A DNA stretch of 33,668 nt from Candidatus Venteria ishoeyi. GTDB lineage: Bacteria; Pseudomonadota; Gammaproteobacteria; Beggiatoales; Beggiatoaceae. The notes below the pieces were generated by a model. The model saw nothing but the letters and a program-made list of their open reading frames with translations. It was not told the DNA's origin and searched no databases. Location of the stretch: the NCBI RefSeq assembly GCF_030378065.1, contig NZ_JAUCGJ010000052.1, positions 1 to 33,668 on the forward strand, written 5' to 3'. This document shows positions 10,012 through 25,685 of the stretch, in pieces (position 1 is the stretch's first letter; each line of letters starts with the position of its first letter). A program made the position numbers and the translations under genes.

Positions 10012-10785
10012 TCAATCAGGGGAGCAATCTTGCAGAATAGTATATAAGTGTTCTTTGAATGTATTAAAACTTGGCATATCAATACGATGTATATCAATTT
10101 CATCATCTTTTAATATATTGTTCCAGTCTTCTGCGCTATAGCTTTTTTTATGTCTATACTCTTTATTTTTTGAAAAAAATTTCTGGCAAGCATTATCAAG
10201 CTGATCTTTCAAGGGTTTTGGACTCTTATCATTACCAGAAGAAATCTTTTCCAGCTTATCGCAGTGATTGTAGGGATTTTCTTTTACTGCACATAATAGC
10301 CATACCTCGGATTTTGGACAAGGTATCATGGGTACACCAGTAGAATATCCTGCGCGTTCAAAGCCTTGTATCATTGAATCCCACTTGTCCTGCCACAGAG
10401 AGCGCGGCGAACTCCGCGTACCATCACTATCACGAAACAATATTGCAATGACAGTTTCATTTTCCTTGCGTTCTATTTCCTTTGCTTTAGTTGCTAATGC
10501 ATGGGCGTTGTTTGCAAAAAATGTGGTTTCTTTTTTTTGTTTTTTACCTGCTAATCTCATAGAACGTTTTTTTGATGAATTGTTTGAGATATCTTTTAAG
10601 GCAGTTTCACTGATAAAAGAGATGATACTATTTTCTAAAATAGAAATTTCAGTTTTTTTATAAACCAATTTATCTACAAGCACTGCCATTGGTCCATAGC
10701 GATATATACCACTATCATATGGCTTACCTCCCACCTTACAATAACCCAAATCTGTTTTACCTTCACCACTGAGCAAAAAAATCAT
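10012..10785 (-). CDS. TOPRIM-like nuclease partner of an AAA ATPase (DUF4276/DUF4435-like)
   Basis: A 257-aa cytoplasmic protein with TOPRIM-style acidic motifs: GEGKTD with Glu8, FRDSDGT with Asp119 and Asp121, then PKSEVWLL with Glu160. This E...DxD layout is typical of metal-dependent nuclease or primase-type TOPRIM folds such as those paired with ATPases in OLD-like and PARIS-like systems. Its start overlaps the ATPase stop by 4 nt (ATGA), so the two are coupled. The pair is visibly more AT-rich than its neighbours and sits inside a pseudopilin cluster, indicating horizontal insertion. I infer an anti-phage cassette. The exact family needs a profile search. Confidence 0.6.
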   Translation of the reverse strand: MIFLLSGEGKTDLGYCKVGGKPYDSGIYRYGPMAVLVDKLVYKKTEISILENSIISFISETALKDISNNSSKKRSMRLAGKKQKKETTFFANNAHALATKAKEIERKENETVIAILFRDSDGTRSSPRSLWQDKWDSMIQGFERAGYSTGVPMIPCPKSEVWLLCAVKENPYNHCDKLEKISSGNDKSPKPLKDQLDNACQKFFSKNKEYRHKKSYSAEDWNNILKDDEIDIHRIDMPSFNTFKEHLYTILQDCSPD

Positions 10786-11921
10786 ACACTTTCTTCCTGT
10801 TTGTTTAGATCAGCAACCAGATCTTCAAGATAAGTGTCTATGAATGCTTCACCCGGCCCCATTATTGTCAATTTTTCCTTGAGCATGGGAATATCAAAAA
10901 AATGTTGACTACGAGTAAAACCTTCTGGTGTTTTATAAACCAAAATCACCGATTTGCTGGCAAGCTCATCTTCCAGATAGTTTAATATCATAGGACTATG
11001 AGTTGTCACCATTATCTGTTGTGAGGTATTGACTAAAGTATCTACCAGTTTCTCAATAATTTCAGGATTGATGCCATTTTCAATTTCATCAAATAAGATA
11101 AAATTATCATTTGTCTGTAATTGTGCAAGAATAGCTAATATGCGTAATATACCATCATTAATATGATTTGAATCTATATCCTGAAAAGAATAATGCTTTA
11201 GAGGGTAGTTTTCTGTAACAGATAATTTTTTCCAGCCTCCGCGCATAGATTCAATACGATATTGGGAAAAGTTAGGGTAAAATTCTTTTAATTTATTTTC
11301 TATTGATGATTTCTGCTTATGAGATAGTTGGGATAAAAATGCAGATAAACGTTCACCGCCAACTCCAATATTTTTGAATTGAGGACGCGCAGATTGGCGA
11401 AGCAAGTGAGGAGCGAGAAGTTCCAGGGATCTAATTGTTCTGAGATCTTTTTTCAGATGCTGTAAAATTTTAGGAAATTTGTCTAAATTTAGCTGTGATA
11501 GGATAGAACCTTGATAATCAAATTGTATATTGAATTTCCCATTATTTTCTAAGGTATAGGTACGCTTTTCTACATTTAATAATATCTCACCATTTACTGT
11601 AATAGATTCTTTAGAGCAGTATAAATCAGTGCGATTAAATTCTCCATTCCAATTTAGTTCTTCACCGTCTATATCAAGGACTACATTAAAACTGATATTG
11701 CTTTTATGAGACTGTTTGTTTTTTAAATCAGATTTTTTCCAATTCCGCTTTTCTAACCAAAAATCTAAATTCCCTATTGTCAATTGGCTCAGAAATTCTA
11801 ATGCTTGTAAAATGGTTGTTTTTCCAGCACCGTTCAATCCAATAAGACAATTAAACTTATTAAGTTTTATCTGAAAATCAACAAGAGACTTAAAATTATC
11901 CAGGTAAATTGTTTTTATCAT
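10782..11921 (-). CDS. ABC/SMC-like AAA ATPase (AAA_15/AAA_21 type)
   Basis: A 379-aa protein. It opens MIKTIYLDNFKSLVDF, typical of RecF/OLD-type ATPases. Walker A is GLNGAGKT at 28-35, Walker B FILFDEIE is at 273-280 and the switch His307 lies in TTHSPM. Its signature-like stretch is NDGILRI. These ATPases dimerise on ATP and control a partner effector. The translationally coupled partner here is the TOPRIM-like gene at 10012-10785. AT-rich codon use (many AAA, TTT and ATT codons) contrasts with the flanking pseudopilin genes. It is probably the sensor/motor half of a two-gene defence system; a house-keeping repair role is less likely given the context. Confidence 0.75.
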   Translation of the reverse strand: MIKTIYLDNFKSLVDFQIKLNKFNCLIGLNGAGKTTILQALEFLSQLTIGNLDFWLEKRNWKKSDLKNKQSHKSNISFNVVLDIDGEELNWNGEFNRTDLYCSKESITVNGEILLNVEKRTYTLENNGKFNIQFDYQGSILSQLNLDKFPKILQHLKKDLRTIRSLELLAPHLLRQSARPQFKNIGVGGERLSAFLSQLSHKQKSSIENKLKEFYPNFSQYRIESMRGGWKKLSVTENYPLKHYSFQDIDSNHINDGILRILAILAQLQTNDNFILFDEIENGINPEIIEKLVDTLVNTSQQIMVTTHSPMILNYLEDELASKSVILVYKTPEGFTRSQHFFDIPMLKEKLTIMGPGEAFIDTYLEDLVADLNKQEESV

Positions 11922-12350: not shown

Positions 12351-12971
12351 TTATTTTGTGGTCTCGGTTGTGACTTTACCGGTGATAGGATTGATCGCCA
12401 CTTTAATTTCAAAGCTTTTGCGCTTAAACACAAATTCTCCACCACTGGAGCCGCCACCGGGATAAAATGTCACTTCATAGACTTTCTTGTTATCCGTTTG
12501 TTTATTGTTTATTTGAGTGCTGTGAATTTCAGCGCCCTTACTGATCCATTGTCCCGGTTGCGGTGGTTTTTGTTTGTTACTGTTTTTGGGTACACCATAG
12601 AGTTTGACTTCAGCTAATTGCCCTTGAATAGTTGCCATGCGTCTGGCGTAATTGAGTACGGCAACGGCTTCACGCACTTCTGCCTGCAAGCGGGTAAATT
12701 CGTTACCCCCCATGCGTGGCACAATCAAGGCGCTGGCAAGCGCGATAATCACCAGCACGATTAATAGTTCAAACAGGGTGAAACCTTGTGTAAAGAATGA
12801 GAATTCAATAACCCCAGCGTCTAGCGGCGCTTTTACGCGCGACTCTGCGTTGTCGCTCCGGTTGCATAGAATAACTATGCGCCCATCGCGCCGCCTTGAT
12901 TTGCGCGCAAAATCACTCGCTATACTTTCTGGTTTTATTAAATTCTCATTCCTAAGGTGTTTTTTATTCAC
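12351..12971 (-). CDS. Type II secretion pseudopilin, GspH-like, with repeat-derived N-terminus
   Basis: The recognisable part starts at TQGFTLFELLIVLVIIALAS, a prepilin cleavage site and helix at residues 61-80 of this frame. The C-terminal domain has the size of a GspH/FimT pseudopilin and a Gly-rich GGGSSGGEF loop. The leader is abnormal: the only plausible start is GTG 12971, giving about 63 residues before the cleavage site. Residues 7-60 are translated from a 161-bp palindromic repeat (12793-12953). Normal leaders are about 6-30 residues. Either a repeat has replaced the original start, or translation begins at a rare codon closer in (an ATT about eight codons before the cleavage site). 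The gene may therefore be impaired. Confidence 0.6.
   Translation of the reverse strand: MNKKHLRNENLIKPESIASDFARKSRRRDGRIVILCNRSDNAESRVKAPLDAGVIEFSFFTQGFTLFELLIVLVIIALASALIVPRMGGNEFTRLQAEVREAVAVLNYARRMATIQGQLAEVKLYGVPKNSNKQKPPQPGQWISKGAEIHSTQINNKQTDNKKVYEVTFYPGGGSSGGEFVFKRKSFEIKVAINPITGKVTTETTK
12793..12953. repeat. 161-bp palindromic repeat, divergent subtype
   Basis: The ends GAATGAGAATT (12795-12805) and AATTCTCATTC (12941-12951) are perfect inverted repeats. The centre is GCATAG-N5-CTATGC (12864-12880). The arms pair imperfectly along their length (AATAA, CCAG/CTGG, CGCGC blocks). Length, outer ends (CTC-x-x-TCCTAAGG) and centre match the copies at 17571-18053 and 25409-25568, but the inner arms differ and are GC-richer. 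It overlaps the start of the gspH-like gene. Confidence 0.75.
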
Positions 12972-17566: not shown

Positions 17567-17570
17567 GAAT

Positions 17571-17731
17571 AAGGAGTGAGGATAAAATAAATACAGAAAC
17601 TGGGCGCAGGATTTTTATTCATTTTCAAGGCGTGAAAACAGGCGCATAGCAAGCTATGTAACTGTTTTCGGAACGCAGAAAATGGAGAAAAAGACCAGCC
17701 AAGTTGCTGAAGTTGTAAAATTCTCGCTCCT
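17571..17731 (+). repeat. 161-bp palindromic repeat, tandem copy 1
   Basis: The unit runs from AGGAGTGAG to CTCGCTCCT plus one A. It is a giant imperfect hairpin: the centre GCATAGCAAGCTATGT (17644-17659) falls exactly mid-unit. The arms pair in blocks: AAAACAG/CTGTTTT, CGT/ACG, CATTTTC/GAAAATG, TTTTT/AAAAA, CTGG/CCAG and the outer ends. Copies 2 and 3 follow without a gap. Confidence 0.9.
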
Positions 17732-17892
17732 AAGGAGTGAGGATAAAATAAATACAGAAACTGGGCGCAGGATTTTTATTCATTTTCAAGGCGTGAAAAC
17801 AGGCGCATAGCAAGCTATGTAACTGTTTTCGGAACGCAGAAAATGGAGAAAAAAACCAGCCAGGTTGCTGAAGTTGTAAAATTCTCGCTCCT
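17732..17892 (+). repeat. 161-bp palindromic repeat, tandem copy 2
   Basis: This is the second exact-period copy. It differs from copy 1 by only a few bases, for example GAAAAAAACCAG in place of GAAAAAGACCAG and CAGGTTG in place of CAAGTTG. The junction CTCCT-A-AGGAG is itself palindromic. Confidence 0.9.
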
Positions 17893-18053
17893 AAGGAGTG
17901 AGGATAAAATAAATACAGAAACTGGGCGCAGGATTTTTATTCATTTTCAAGGCGTGAAAACAGGCGCATAGCAAGCTATGTAACTGTTTTTGGAACGCAG
18001 AAAATGGAGAAAAAGACCAGCCAAGTTGCTGAAGTTGTAAAATTCTCGCTCCT
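17893..18053 (+). repeat. 161-bp palindromic repeat, tandem copy 3
   Basis: The third copy differs from copy 1 by about one base (GTTTTTGGAACG). Its right end CTCGCTCCT finishes 17 bp before the oxyR start. The AAGGA right after the unit (18054-18058) may serve as the oxyR ribosome site. Confidence 0.9.
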
Positions 18054-18070
18054 AAGGACTTTATACGCAG

Positions 18071-20061: not shown

Positions 20062-20328
20062 TCAGAAATAAAGTGTAGAAATTTTCCTGATACCTGTAAC
20101 AAGATTACGAAAACTATCAGAACGGATATTATCAGGTGTCAGTAATTTTCCGATTGCTCGCGAACCACTGATTTTCTGATAACGCCCTTTGCTGAGTTTT
20201 TTCAATTCCTGTTTGCCTTCAAATACCAAATAGCGTACAAACGTATCTTGTGGAATAATTTTAGGCAATAAACCTTCAAGCATTGCGCGTGCTGAGGGTT
20301 CTTCGAGCAGGAATACCAGCTCATTCAT
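20062..20328 (-). pseudogene. DUF4276 protein with internal in-frame deletion
   Basis: The frame gives 88 aa starting MNELVFLLEEPSARAMLEGL, the well-known N-terminus of DUF4276. It then jumps from VFEGKQEL directly to KKLSKGRYQKISGSRAIG, the C-terminal signature of the same family. Full-length relatives are about 200 aa, as I recall, and carry between these blocks a TOPRIM-like core with an RDxD motif and an ELESWYLGD-type motif. That core is missing here while the frame stays open. The start overlaps the ATPase stop by 4 nt. The remnant cannot have the TOPRIM active site. Whether it is still expressed is unknown. Confidence 0.75.
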
Positions 20329-21515
20329 TGTGGGTCGGCCCCCTCGAAAAAACCTTGCTTCCACAAGTAGCCCATTTTATCGCCTTCCGCCATATAGGCT
20401 GAGAGTTGTGGGTCGTCTTTGGCGCGGCATATTTTGGTGCAGCCATTAACCTTTACCAGCCAAAATACTTCATCTAATTCCGCAGCATTAAGAAAATCTG
20501 GAGAATGCGTGGAAACTAAAACCTGCCCGCCCTGATTGGCATATAAACGAAATTCTTCTGCTAATTCTCCCATCAATTTGGGGTAGAGTTGGTTTTCCGG
20601 CTCTTCTACGCATAGCAGCGGATGTGGTTTGGGGTCGTAAAGTAATACCAGATAGGCAAACATTTTAATCGTGCCATCGGATACATAACGATCCAGAAAG
20701 GGGGTTTTAAATGAGCCATCCTGAAAACGTAATGTTAAATAACCATCATCCATGAGCTTGGGTTCGATATGCTGCACCCCCGGCACGCGCTGGATCATAT
20801 TTTCCAGAATGCGATTAAATACTGTTGGGTGCTGTTCATGCAGATATTGCGCAACTCTGGGCAGATTATCACCGGTTTCCGATAAATGTTCAGAGTCTCC
20901 CGCCGCCTCCTTGCGTCCACGCGCGACATTAATATGAAAATCAGAAACATGCCAGGATTCCAGTAAACGCCGGAAGGCATTGGCTGCCTTGAAACGCTCA
21001 AATTGCCCTAAGCCCTTGAGGGCGAGAATATCCGGTGAGTCCAGTTTTTGATTTTCCCGGGTCAATTTTTCATCAGGCTTGTTAAAATCTTCTTCATTGC
21101 TAATGGCGTAACCTTCTCCATTGGCAAAATCAAGAAAATGATAGGGGCTGCCGTGCGCACCACGTTTGTAACGTAAAATTTCCCGTTTCACATAAGGCGC
21201 GCCTGCACGTTCAGCAATTTCCAGAGAATAGGTAACTAAACGTTGTTTATCAAGAATTGGCATCCGATATTTGATTTCAATCAAAATGCTATCATCGTTG
21301 CTGTCACGGCTCAACACTTCCTTAAAACGTCCCCGCGCATCCAGTGCTTGTCGGACGTTACCCTGAAGACAGTCATGCAAAAAGCCGAATACTTCAAACA
21401 GCGTGGTTTTGCCTGAGCCATTTGCACCGACGATCACGCAAAAATGAGGAATATCACGAATTTCAACATCCCGAAAGGCTTTAAAATTTTTCAAGCGGAT
21501 GGATTCGATTTGCAT
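20325..21515 (-). CDS. AAA ATPase (OLD/RecF-like, DUF4276-associated)
   Basis: A 396-aa protein. It starts MQIESIRLKNFKAFRDVEI. Walker A is GANGSGKT at 30-37, the signature-like YVSDGTIKMF is at about 278-287, Walker B LLCVEEPE is at 300-307 and the switch His337 lies in STHSPD. ATG 21515 with AAGGAA upstream is preferred over the longer frame. It is coupled to the DUF4276 remnant. ATPase/DUF4276 pairs recur in bacterial accessory regions and are suspected defence modules. This ATPase seems intact although its partner is gutted. It differs from the ATPase at 10782, so the two are separate systems and not a local duplication. Confidence 0.8.
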   Translation of the reverse strand: MQIESIRLKNFKAFRDVEIRDIPHFCVIVGANGSGKTTLFEVFGFLHDCLQGNVRQALDARGRFKEVLSRDSNDDSILIEIKYRMPILDKQRLVTYSLEIAERAGAPYVKREILRYKRGAHGSPYHFLDFANGEGYAISNEEDFNKPDEKLTRENQKLDSPDILALKGLGQFERFKAANAFRRLLESWHVSDFHINVARGRKEAAGDSEHLSETGDNLPRVAQYLHEQHPTVFNRILENMIQRVPGVQHIEPKLMDDGYLTLRFQDGSFKTPFLDRYVSDGTIKMFAYLVLLYDPKPHPLLCVEEPENQLYPKLMGELAEEFRLYANQGGQVLVSTHSPDFLNAAELDEVFWLVKVNGCTKICRAKDDPQLSAYMAEGDKMGYLWKQGFFEGADPQ

Positions 21516-21592
21516 TATGTTGATTCCTTTGACTACCCTCAAAAACCATTAAACGTCATTCTATCGCAAGTCTTTTCCCTTGTCTTAGCCGT

Positions 21593-24658: not shown

Positions 24659-24898
24659 TTAAGGTAAACGGTCTTCAGGTTTCGGTTCTATATCTGGTGC
24701 TTTATCCAATACCGCCAAAAACTTCTCACGATTACCTCGTGCTGCACGTTTTTTCAGATAATCTTCAGTCATCATCGCGGAAAGTTTTTCGCTTAATGCC
24801 AAAGCAACCAGTTGGTCTAATGGGATATTTTCCTGTTGTGACAAGTCACGAATGCCTTTGTAAACAGCATCAGGTACATTGACGTTTAATTGAGTCAT
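24659..24898 (-). CDS. Ribbon-helix-helix-type antitoxin
   Basis: A 79-aa protein. LNVNVPDAVYKGIRDLSQQE and PLDQLVALALSEKLSAMM (residues 4-42) look like a ribbon-helix-helix DNA-binding unit. The C-terminal tail is Pro/Glu-rich and probably binds the toxin. The PIN toxin gene ends within its start (4-nt overlap, toxin upstream), an order seen in some PIN modules. It lies 12 nt before the RND pump gene, so the two could share a transcript. Confidence 0.7.
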   Translation of the reverse strand: MTQLNVNVPDAVYKGIRDLSQQENIPLDQLVALALSEKLSAMMTEDYLKKRAARGNREKFLAVLDKAPDIEPKPEDRLP

Positions 24899-25314
24899 GG
24901 TAAATCTCCAGTCAATAGCAAAAATTCTTTGGGTGTTAAAACTTGAATGCCAAAACGAAAGACATTCGGAAAATCTCTTTTGTTAAAACTGATAATAAAA
25001 TCCGCTTCAGCTTCTACAGCCAGTTCCAGCAAAAAATCATCATCAGGATCAGGCAACTGAGGTCGCCAAAGATAGAAAATCTGGCGATGTTTACAAATAG
25101 TGCAAAAGTAATCCAGGAAATCTTCAATGGCTTGGTCAGTCACGCCTAAAACGGGCATGATGCGTTTACAAACTTCTTCATATTCCAGCAACAACGGTAC
25201 GGACAAGTTAACTTGCCAGTCACGCTCGCCTAACAAACGTAATAATAAGTTTGATGCACCACGTCGGGAGCGCATGGCAGCAATGATGATGTTGGTATCC
25301 AGGACAATATTCAT
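24895..25314 (-). CDS. PIN-domain toxin (putative ribonuclease)
   Basis: A 139-aa protein. It opens MNIVLDTNIIIAAMRSRRG with Asp6 of the PIN active site. Acidic residues recur in LLLEYEEV and in DPDDDFLLELAVEAEADFIISFNKRDF, the classic PIN C-terminal block. PIN toxins cleave RNA until held by the antitoxin, here the gene at 24659. ATG 25314 is chosen. An open frame continues 74 codons upstream, but it is made of a gene fragment and the translated palindromic repeat, so it is not the real N-terminus. Confidence 0.82.
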   Translation of the reverse strand: MNIVLDTNIIIAAMRSRRGASNLLLRLLGERDWQVNLSVPLLLEYEEVCKRIMPVLGVTDQAIEDFLDYFCTICKHRQIFYLWRPQLPDPDDDFLLELAVEAEADFIISFNKRDFPNVFRFGIQVLTPKEFLLLTGDLP

Positions 25315-25401
25315 AGTCGTGCCAGTTTGGGTGCGCAACTCTTCAAAAGCATTTGCTTGTGAGCTGTTTAGGGGGTGAATGGCTTTCCAATCTAAATTCA
25401 T
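25315..25401 (-). pseudogene. N-terminal fragment of an unrelated gene fused in frame ahead of the PIN toxin
   Basis: Directly upstream of and in frame with the toxin is a stretch starting at ATG 25401: MNLDWKAIHPLNSSQANAF, then EELRTQTGTT. From memory it resembles the start of large accessory nuclease/ATPase proteins (xIRPLNGSQxxGFEEL pattern). Only about 29 codons remain before the PIN start. The palindromic repeat ends 8 bp upstream of this ATG. The identification rests on recall of a motif and is tentative. Confidence 0.35.
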
Positions 25402-25408
25402 GAAACTA

Positions 25409-25568
25409 AGGAGCGAGAATTTTATAACTTCAGCAACCTGGCTGGTCTTTTTCTCCATTTTCTGCGTTCCGAAAACAGTTACATAGCTTGCTATGCGCCT
25501 GTTTTCACGCCTTGAAAATGAATAAAAATCCTGCACCCAGTTTCTGTATTTATTTTATCCTCACTCCT
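25409..25568 (-). repeat. 161-bp-family palindromic repeat, inverted copy 4
   Basis: It is nearly identical to the three tandem copies at 17571-18053 but in the opposite orientation, running from AGGAGTGAG (25568) to CTCGCTCCT (25409) on the minus strand. The centre GCATAGCAAGCTATGT is retained. Most of the 284-bp gene-free stretch 25402-25685 is this element; the remainder, 25569-25685, is AT-rich with nothing recognised. Confidence 0.9.
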
Positions 25569-25685
25569 AAACACTGTACTCTAATAATAATTCTGTCACT
25601 GTAGCGACTATGGTACATCGTTTTCCACTTTAAAAATGATGCTTGCCATTACTGTAGAATGCTACTGTTATTTGATTATTGTTTT

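Follow-up and report, generated by a model that had tools for sequence, protein, structure and literature searches.

A palindromic MITE with ISAzo13-like ends and a conserved hairpin in Candidatus Venteria ishoeyi and other bacteria

Nezha and other cyanobacterial MITEs are short hairpin elements derived from insertion sequences (IS). Rickettsia palindromic elements (RPEs), as described in passages of PMC10969869, are palindromes of ~150 bp that lie in frame in unrelated genes and add peptide to their products. High-copy, hairpin-forming MITEs are described for Ca. Thiomargarita nelsonii in passages of PMC4853749, which give their parent IS as unknown. The ISAzo13 family makes 3-bp target-site duplications (TSDs), according to part of PMC10045372, and the passages of PMC9208149 do not link ISAzo13 and MITEs. 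Here we describe a 159-nt palindrome in a window of 33,668 nt that is one whole contig of the Ca. Venteria ishoeyi genome (G000; 4.41 Mb, 115 contigs). The preferred reading, to which we give a probability of about 0.85 from sequence comparison, is that of a non-autonomous MITE with ISAzo13-type ends, which would be moved in trans by an ISAzo13-type transposase and helped to persist by its fold. A search of the open-paper literature on ISAzo13 and MITEs found no description of such an element.

The window copy occupies 12794-12952 on the minus strand, an orientation set by its GGGCGCATAG centre, and is flanked by TAA on the left (12791-12793) and on the right (12953-12955), the whole spanning 12791-12955; that these triplets are a TSD is taken from 33 sister copies of the second type (type A, below). 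The palindrome reported earlier at 12793-12953 is thus real, with coordinates off by one to two bases. Its terminal inverted repeats, GGAATGAGAATTTAATAAA (12934-12952, minus strand) and AGAATGAGAATTCAATAAC (12794-12812, plus strand), pair with each other and agree with the MITE consensus at 18/19 and 17/19 positions, respectively, and its 159 nt are too short for any transposase gene. The left end reads TAA-AGAATGAG, and the right end CTCATTCCTAAGG as against CTCGCTCCTAAGG in the copies beside an oxyR-like gene. The GCATAG/CTATG centre said to be common to both was confirmed in the window copy as GCATAGaataaCTATGC. Folding of 12793-12953 on the plus strand gave –60.6 kcal/mol (z –6.8) and that of 12794-12952 on the minus strand –76.3 kcal/mol (z –10.2), and in neither case did any of 200 shuffles fold as well. 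Elsewhere in the window, the contig starts within the apparent C-terminus of an ISAs1-like transposase (1-123, by eye), and an AAA ATPase at 20325-21542 gives a full-length match to PADLOC HEC-01B (4e-226).

Type A copies, each of 158 nt, form a tandem array beside the oxyR-like (LysR-family) gene, where three elements on the plus strand (17573-17730, 17734-17891 and 17895-18052; array 17570-18055) are separated by a single TAA between neighbours; a further type A copy, with TAA on both sides, lies on the minus strand at 25410-25567, upstream of a PIN-family toxin-like gene. The array sits between a rubrerythrin gene and the oxyR-like gene, and another tandem pair of elements occurs at G000:C35:33777-34101. 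The toxin-like gene is a TIGR00305 match, and its listed ORF begins inside this type A copy, which with its flanks spans 25407-25570; gene and copy together take up 24895-25570. Subtype B, comprising the window copy, a copy on contig C89 and one in a relative (G003), adds 162 bp net, as do most methanotroph copies, whereas type A adds 161 bp. The length of ~161 bp that the earlier note had taken to be shared with the oxyR copies is therefore near but not identical, and the difference of one base matters for the reading frame.

A pattern combining ends and spacing occurs 75+77 times in the 4.4 Mb of G000, compared with 0+0 for the reversed-pattern control; some of these copies are 12 bp longer. 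The C89 copy (L002) is 96% identical to the window copy, adjoins a type A copy and is intergenic according to a rough ORF caller, and the third subtype B copy belongs to another genus of the same family. Within that family the pattern was present in 2/42 genomes, G000 and G003, the latter with two copies. Another G000 palindrome (L003) combines a type A-like interior with GGAATGCACATGGCATAA-type ends that are, by eye, nearer to methanotroph IS ends. A search of genome contigs for the ends at a length of 151-179 recovered at least 26 stretches; among the matches listed, methanotrophs made up most rows, accompanied by Leptolyngbya, Chamaesiphon, Phormidesmis, Anaerolineae, Chitinophagales, Cytophagales and one other bacterium. 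Among the same listed matches, the interiors are related in methanotrophs and Chitinophagales, and the same ends enclose other interiors in Cyanobacteria, Anaerolineae and Cytophagales. Repeat-like interiors between the shared ends were seen in L074, L084, L067 and L072 (GTCATTCCC... in Anaerolineae; CTTCGACTACGCTCAG... in Leptolyngbya). Across 16 genomes, seven end pairs had a length of 90-150 bp, and since six of these belong to an Anaerolineae genome and only one to G000, length appears strict in G000 and not everywhere. No match was returned by blastn for a methanotroph copy against plasmids or for a type A copy against phages, and the pattern at four gap ranges gave 0 each in viral contigs.

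To delimit the element, the 158-nt type A sequence alone was placed in 30 loci, yielding 33 distinct sites, with one hit partial; these loci had been retrieved with a query that carried the three flank bases. Identical 3-bp flanks were present in 30/33 distinct copies (TAA 17, TTA 10, ATA 2, TGA 1), and the triplets differed in the other three. The ATA/ATA and TGA/TGA flanks indicate that the triplet is duplicated target DNA and not part of the element. With orientation normalised, TAA is followed by G in 25/28 sites. Of the 152 copies counted in G000, 51 distinct ones were assigned a gene context with the rough ORF caller: 28 lie between tandem, 14 between divergent and 8 between convergent genes, with 1 undetermined; none of them lies deep inside an ORF, and in eight an ORF stop codon overlaps the duplication. 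An excess of convergent contexts, which would suit a terminator role, was not seen among these 51 copies, as judged by rough ORF calls and set against no random-site control. The element is short, has no transposase gene, carries terminal inverted repeats and a TSD, and is dispersed in many copies, all of which strongly supports its classification as a MITE, a non-autonomous transposable element.

Because the duplication is TTA/TAA, the ISAzo13 transposase family was examined as a source of mobility; two transposases that were checked matched NF033519 at 386 and 393 bits (cut-off 200). When 14 ISAzo13 loci from palindrome-bearing and other genomes were scanned with no target imposed, six had clear ends with identical TTA or TAA triplets, three had TAA on one side and TTA on the other, and five gave no clear ends. 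When TTA/TAA was required, paired ends were found in 34/85 loci, with identical triplets in 24, and the 68 ends of these 34 loci had a median agreement of 14/19 positions with the MITE consensus (lowest 4). For the 46 ends of 23 chosen elements, the median was 13.5 compared to 7 for a background of 742 other GG-starting 19-mers following TTA/TAA in the same loci (p 2.6e-26); 19 of the 742 score at least 15 and are probably stray MITE or IS ends. The set of 23 omitted L130 (same place as L092), L140, L153, L157, L158, L162, L166, L168 and L172, which had at least 14 paired end bases, as well as L100 and L105 (copies of L109), all of which were restored in the 34-locus set. The IS ends closest to the MITE consensus, at 18/19, belong to L125, which has GGAATGAAAATTTAATAAC as either end, and to L159, one of whose ends reads GGAATGCGGATTAAATAAC; they come from genomes other than G000. 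The window ends match those of L125 at 17/19 (GGAATGAGAATTTAATAAA) and 16/19 (AGAATGAGAATTCAATAAC) positions, with no exact match; the L125 triplets are unequal (TAA on one side, TTA on the other), as are those of L140, an 810-bp remnant. The exact MITE end motif was absent from IS ends in 20 ISAzo13 loci from palindrome-bearing genomes.

The transposase domain PF07592 was detected in 8/15 palindrome-bearing genomes compared with 0/14 controls; the search gave no match in G000, in G003 or in five more of the 15. In G360, an IS (L159) and a MITE (L178) have GGACT[C/G]AGGAT ends in common, so that an autonomous partner with like ends is in part found there. Among 151 genomes of the order to which the Bathymodiolus symbiont belongs, the pattern occurs in two, both with PF07592; as PF07592 is present in 42/151, its association with the pattern there is weak. 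Taken together, the resemblance of the ends to ISAzo13-family ends and the same TTA/TAA target make ISAzo13-type mobilisation a well-supported reading, with the partner not found in G000, and it was probably an ISAzo13-type transposase that moved the element. The transposase may have been lost from G000, or may lie on short contigs outside those searched. Mechanistically, a DDE transposase of the ISAzo13 type, supplied in trans, would cut at the GGAAYGAG... ends, insertion at TAA/TTA would produce the duplication of those three bases that is observed, and folding, or an event that requires folding, would help the element to persist. Separately, G205, G120 and G393 contain repeated short matches confined to the C-terminal region of the ISAzo13 transposase, which suggests IS derivatives with internal deletions and, perhaps, another class of MITE.

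The contribution of the fold was evaluated by covariation. Between the window copy and one oxyR-side copy, 60/96 paired bases are identical, and of the 48 consensus pairs 25 are unchanged, 7 and 11 are kept through change in one or both bases, respectively, and 5 are lost; the earlier description of arms that differ and still pair holds. What the subtypes retain in common are the ends, an AAAA/TTTT helix and the centre with a 2×2 mismatch, the arms diverging by paired changes. When 25 elements of G000, G003 and the methanotroph group were aligned, 95.7% of cells were paired. Two-sided changes occurred at 24/48 pairs, compared to 9.3 ± 2.4 (maximum 16) in 300 runs of a tree null in which inferred substitutions were replayed on the tree with sites independent, and the covariation score of 0.408 compares with 0.099 (maximum 0.159, 300 runs) for the same null, 0.186 for shuffles and at most 0.115 for slid structures. 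The structure was derived from the tested alignment itself, which favours high covariation. Both measures place covariation above the phylogenetic background, the level at or below which the earlier note would have abandoned a structured element. Folding of the interiors of 29 distinct elements, drawn from the stretches listed by ends and length and from further loci, with 28 nt trimmed per end, gave z < –2 in 28 (median –6.9); ~20 of these elements are mutually related, and z spans –1.9 to –10.3 in the nine others, which were separated by eye.

The fold is thus maintained above tree background. The earlier note had called such compensatory divergence the hallmark of selection on secondary structure; the covariation is borne out, and it is compatible both with selection and with arm-templated repair, since in a DNA palindrome covariation can also arise when one arm templates repair of the other. 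The best-surviving alternative, possible if less probable than our preferred reading, is accordingly that the element is a MITE whose palindrome is kept by inter-arm template switching during replication alone, without selection on the fold. Palindromes are known substrates of template-switching events, and by eye the arm differences between subtypes are blockwise, as this alternative would have it. Pure arm-to-arm repair would, however, tend to erase mismatches, and a GC/AA 2×2 internal loop adjoining the centre is unchanged in 24/25 rows and recurs in the Chitinophagales copy, where the inner stem is altered on both sides (CATAG/CTATG to TTTAG/CTAAA).

Less probable still, and in our view improbable, is a structured or cis-regulatory RNA kept by selection on the transcript fold, towards which the earlier note had leaned. 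The strong covariation, the far better folding on the minus than on the plus strand and several conserved G.U pairs would all suit an RNA. Mismatches of the G.T type outnumber A.C by 179:113 in 30 related sequences, an excess driven by methanotrophs (several copies with 8–11 G.T versus 2–5 A.C), but the two are about equal in the types native to G000. An RNA also fits poorly with dispersed copies carrying target duplications and with the mixed gene context of the 51 copies, and no Rfam family reached its gathering threshold in the window, the one match on the element being at chance level (15 bits, E 0.53). Finally, a REP/BIME- or attC-like element, on whose folded single strand an HUH or tyrosine recombinase would act, is suggested by the long imperfect hairpin with conserved unpaired bases and is very improbable given a 3-bp target duplication at four different triplets and the sharing of this target by IS ends of the DDE type.

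Subtype B can lie within genes. The window copy lies in the prepilin leader of a gspH-like minor pseudopilin gene (12351-12971, minus strand; TIGR01708 at 44 bits, below the cut-off of 80), where it forms 54 in-frame codons between VNKKHL and TQGFTLFELL and leaves the reading frame unbroken. In silico removal of the element and one TAA yields VNKKHLTQGFTLFELLIVL (VNKKHLTQGFTLFELLIVLVIIALASALIVPRMGG), a standard prepilin leader. The insert was present in 0/19 orthologues viewed; in 14/19 the frame is open for just 10–21 codons before the cleavage motif, and the remaining five have 56–87 open codons, with no start codon assigned and no visible likeness to the element. Nearby, the pseudopilin cluster is split between gspI-like and gspJ-like genes (both matches below cut-offs) by a two-gene candidate defence system at 10012-11921, PADLOC PDC-M25A (8e-157) and PDC-M25B (1.5e-87). 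The G003 copy (L064) is in frame in a 571-aa ORF with Peptidase_M48 and TPR matches, which we take to be BepA-like, and directly precedes LLCLASLVFSAGMVEA, a signal-peptide-like stretch. The subtype B copies known number three, and two are in frame, in opposite orientations in the two genes. No in-frame ATG, GTG or TTG lies inside the element in the gspH-like gene; the M48 gene has one in-frame ATG within it, at codon 68, and its start could therefore be internal to the element. Just upstream of the full G003 copy, at L064 1662-1725, is a shorter palindrome with GGCATGAGC ends, also in frame and probably a deletion derivative of subtype B. Coding tolerance is a real observation in two genes, and for the gspH-like gene a fusion protein is predicted; selection for such tolerance is unproven.

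Subtype B has one stop-free frame per strand, which together with its net length of 162 bp allows it to sit inside a coding region. Among 17 distinct sequences in the divisible-by-three class, at least one frame is open throughout in 14 and two frames in 10, the two frames corresponding in register between one strand and the other. In the remainder-2 class an open frame runs through 4/46. Interior stops average 0.24 in the open frame, 0.71 in the mirror frame and 1.8–2.9 in the other four. The type A interior is similarly stop-poor (0.26 stops, none in 34/46) despite a length that shifts the frame; ancestry may therefore explain much of the openness, which argues against a simple coding interpretation. 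When 12 sequences of 159 nt were replayed from four open roots, in a model that leaves out pairing and with sequences that are related, 9/11 others were open compared to null means of 1.4–4.4, and the observed count was reached in 12, 0, 3 and 5 of 200 null runs. As a sign of more open frames than an unconstrained replay would leave, this is no more than suggestive.

With these results we propose which transposase family drives a high-copy palindrome that has had no name, and show that its hairpin is retained above tree background. Since the arms diverge with compensation, natural variants provide ready-made controls for the role of the fold in transposition. What appears new, as read from the sequences, is subtype B itself: 162 bp, open on both strands and in frame in two genes. 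A wider proposal, which we regard as unlikely, is that cross-phylum ISAzo13-driven transposons are selected for a specific imperfect hairpin, and that the 162-bp class is also selected to remain free of stops on both strands, entering genes either way, adding peptide and persisting best when inserted between the charged part and the hydrophobic part of an N-terminal export signal, as a non-Rickettsia counterpart of RPEs.

Compared with known systems, the element shares with ISAzo13 (NF033519, PF07592) the 3-bp TTA/TAA target, GG-starting ends and mostly AAATAA near positions 13–18; ISAzo13 IS are ~1300 bp with a transposase, whereas the element is ~160 bp, palindromic throughout and without a transposase gene. 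Its likeness to Nezha and other cyanobacterial MITEs is one of general description alone. The MITEs of Ca. Thiomargarita nelsonii are likewise high in copy number and hairpin-forming in the passages seen, and are set apart by description, with 10-bp or TATAG direct repeats in those passages (PMC4853749) as against 3-bp TAA/TTA here. As with RPEs, subtype B lies in frame in unrelated genes (gspH-like and M48 peptidase) and adds peptide; unlike RPEs, the element is linked to a family of IS and to a target duplication, and its copies are mostly intergenic. Both in-frame cases are subtype B, N-terminal and open on both strands, which also sets them against RPEs. Overall, the likeness to RPEs is one of description and not of sequence homology, and we do not class the element as an RPE.
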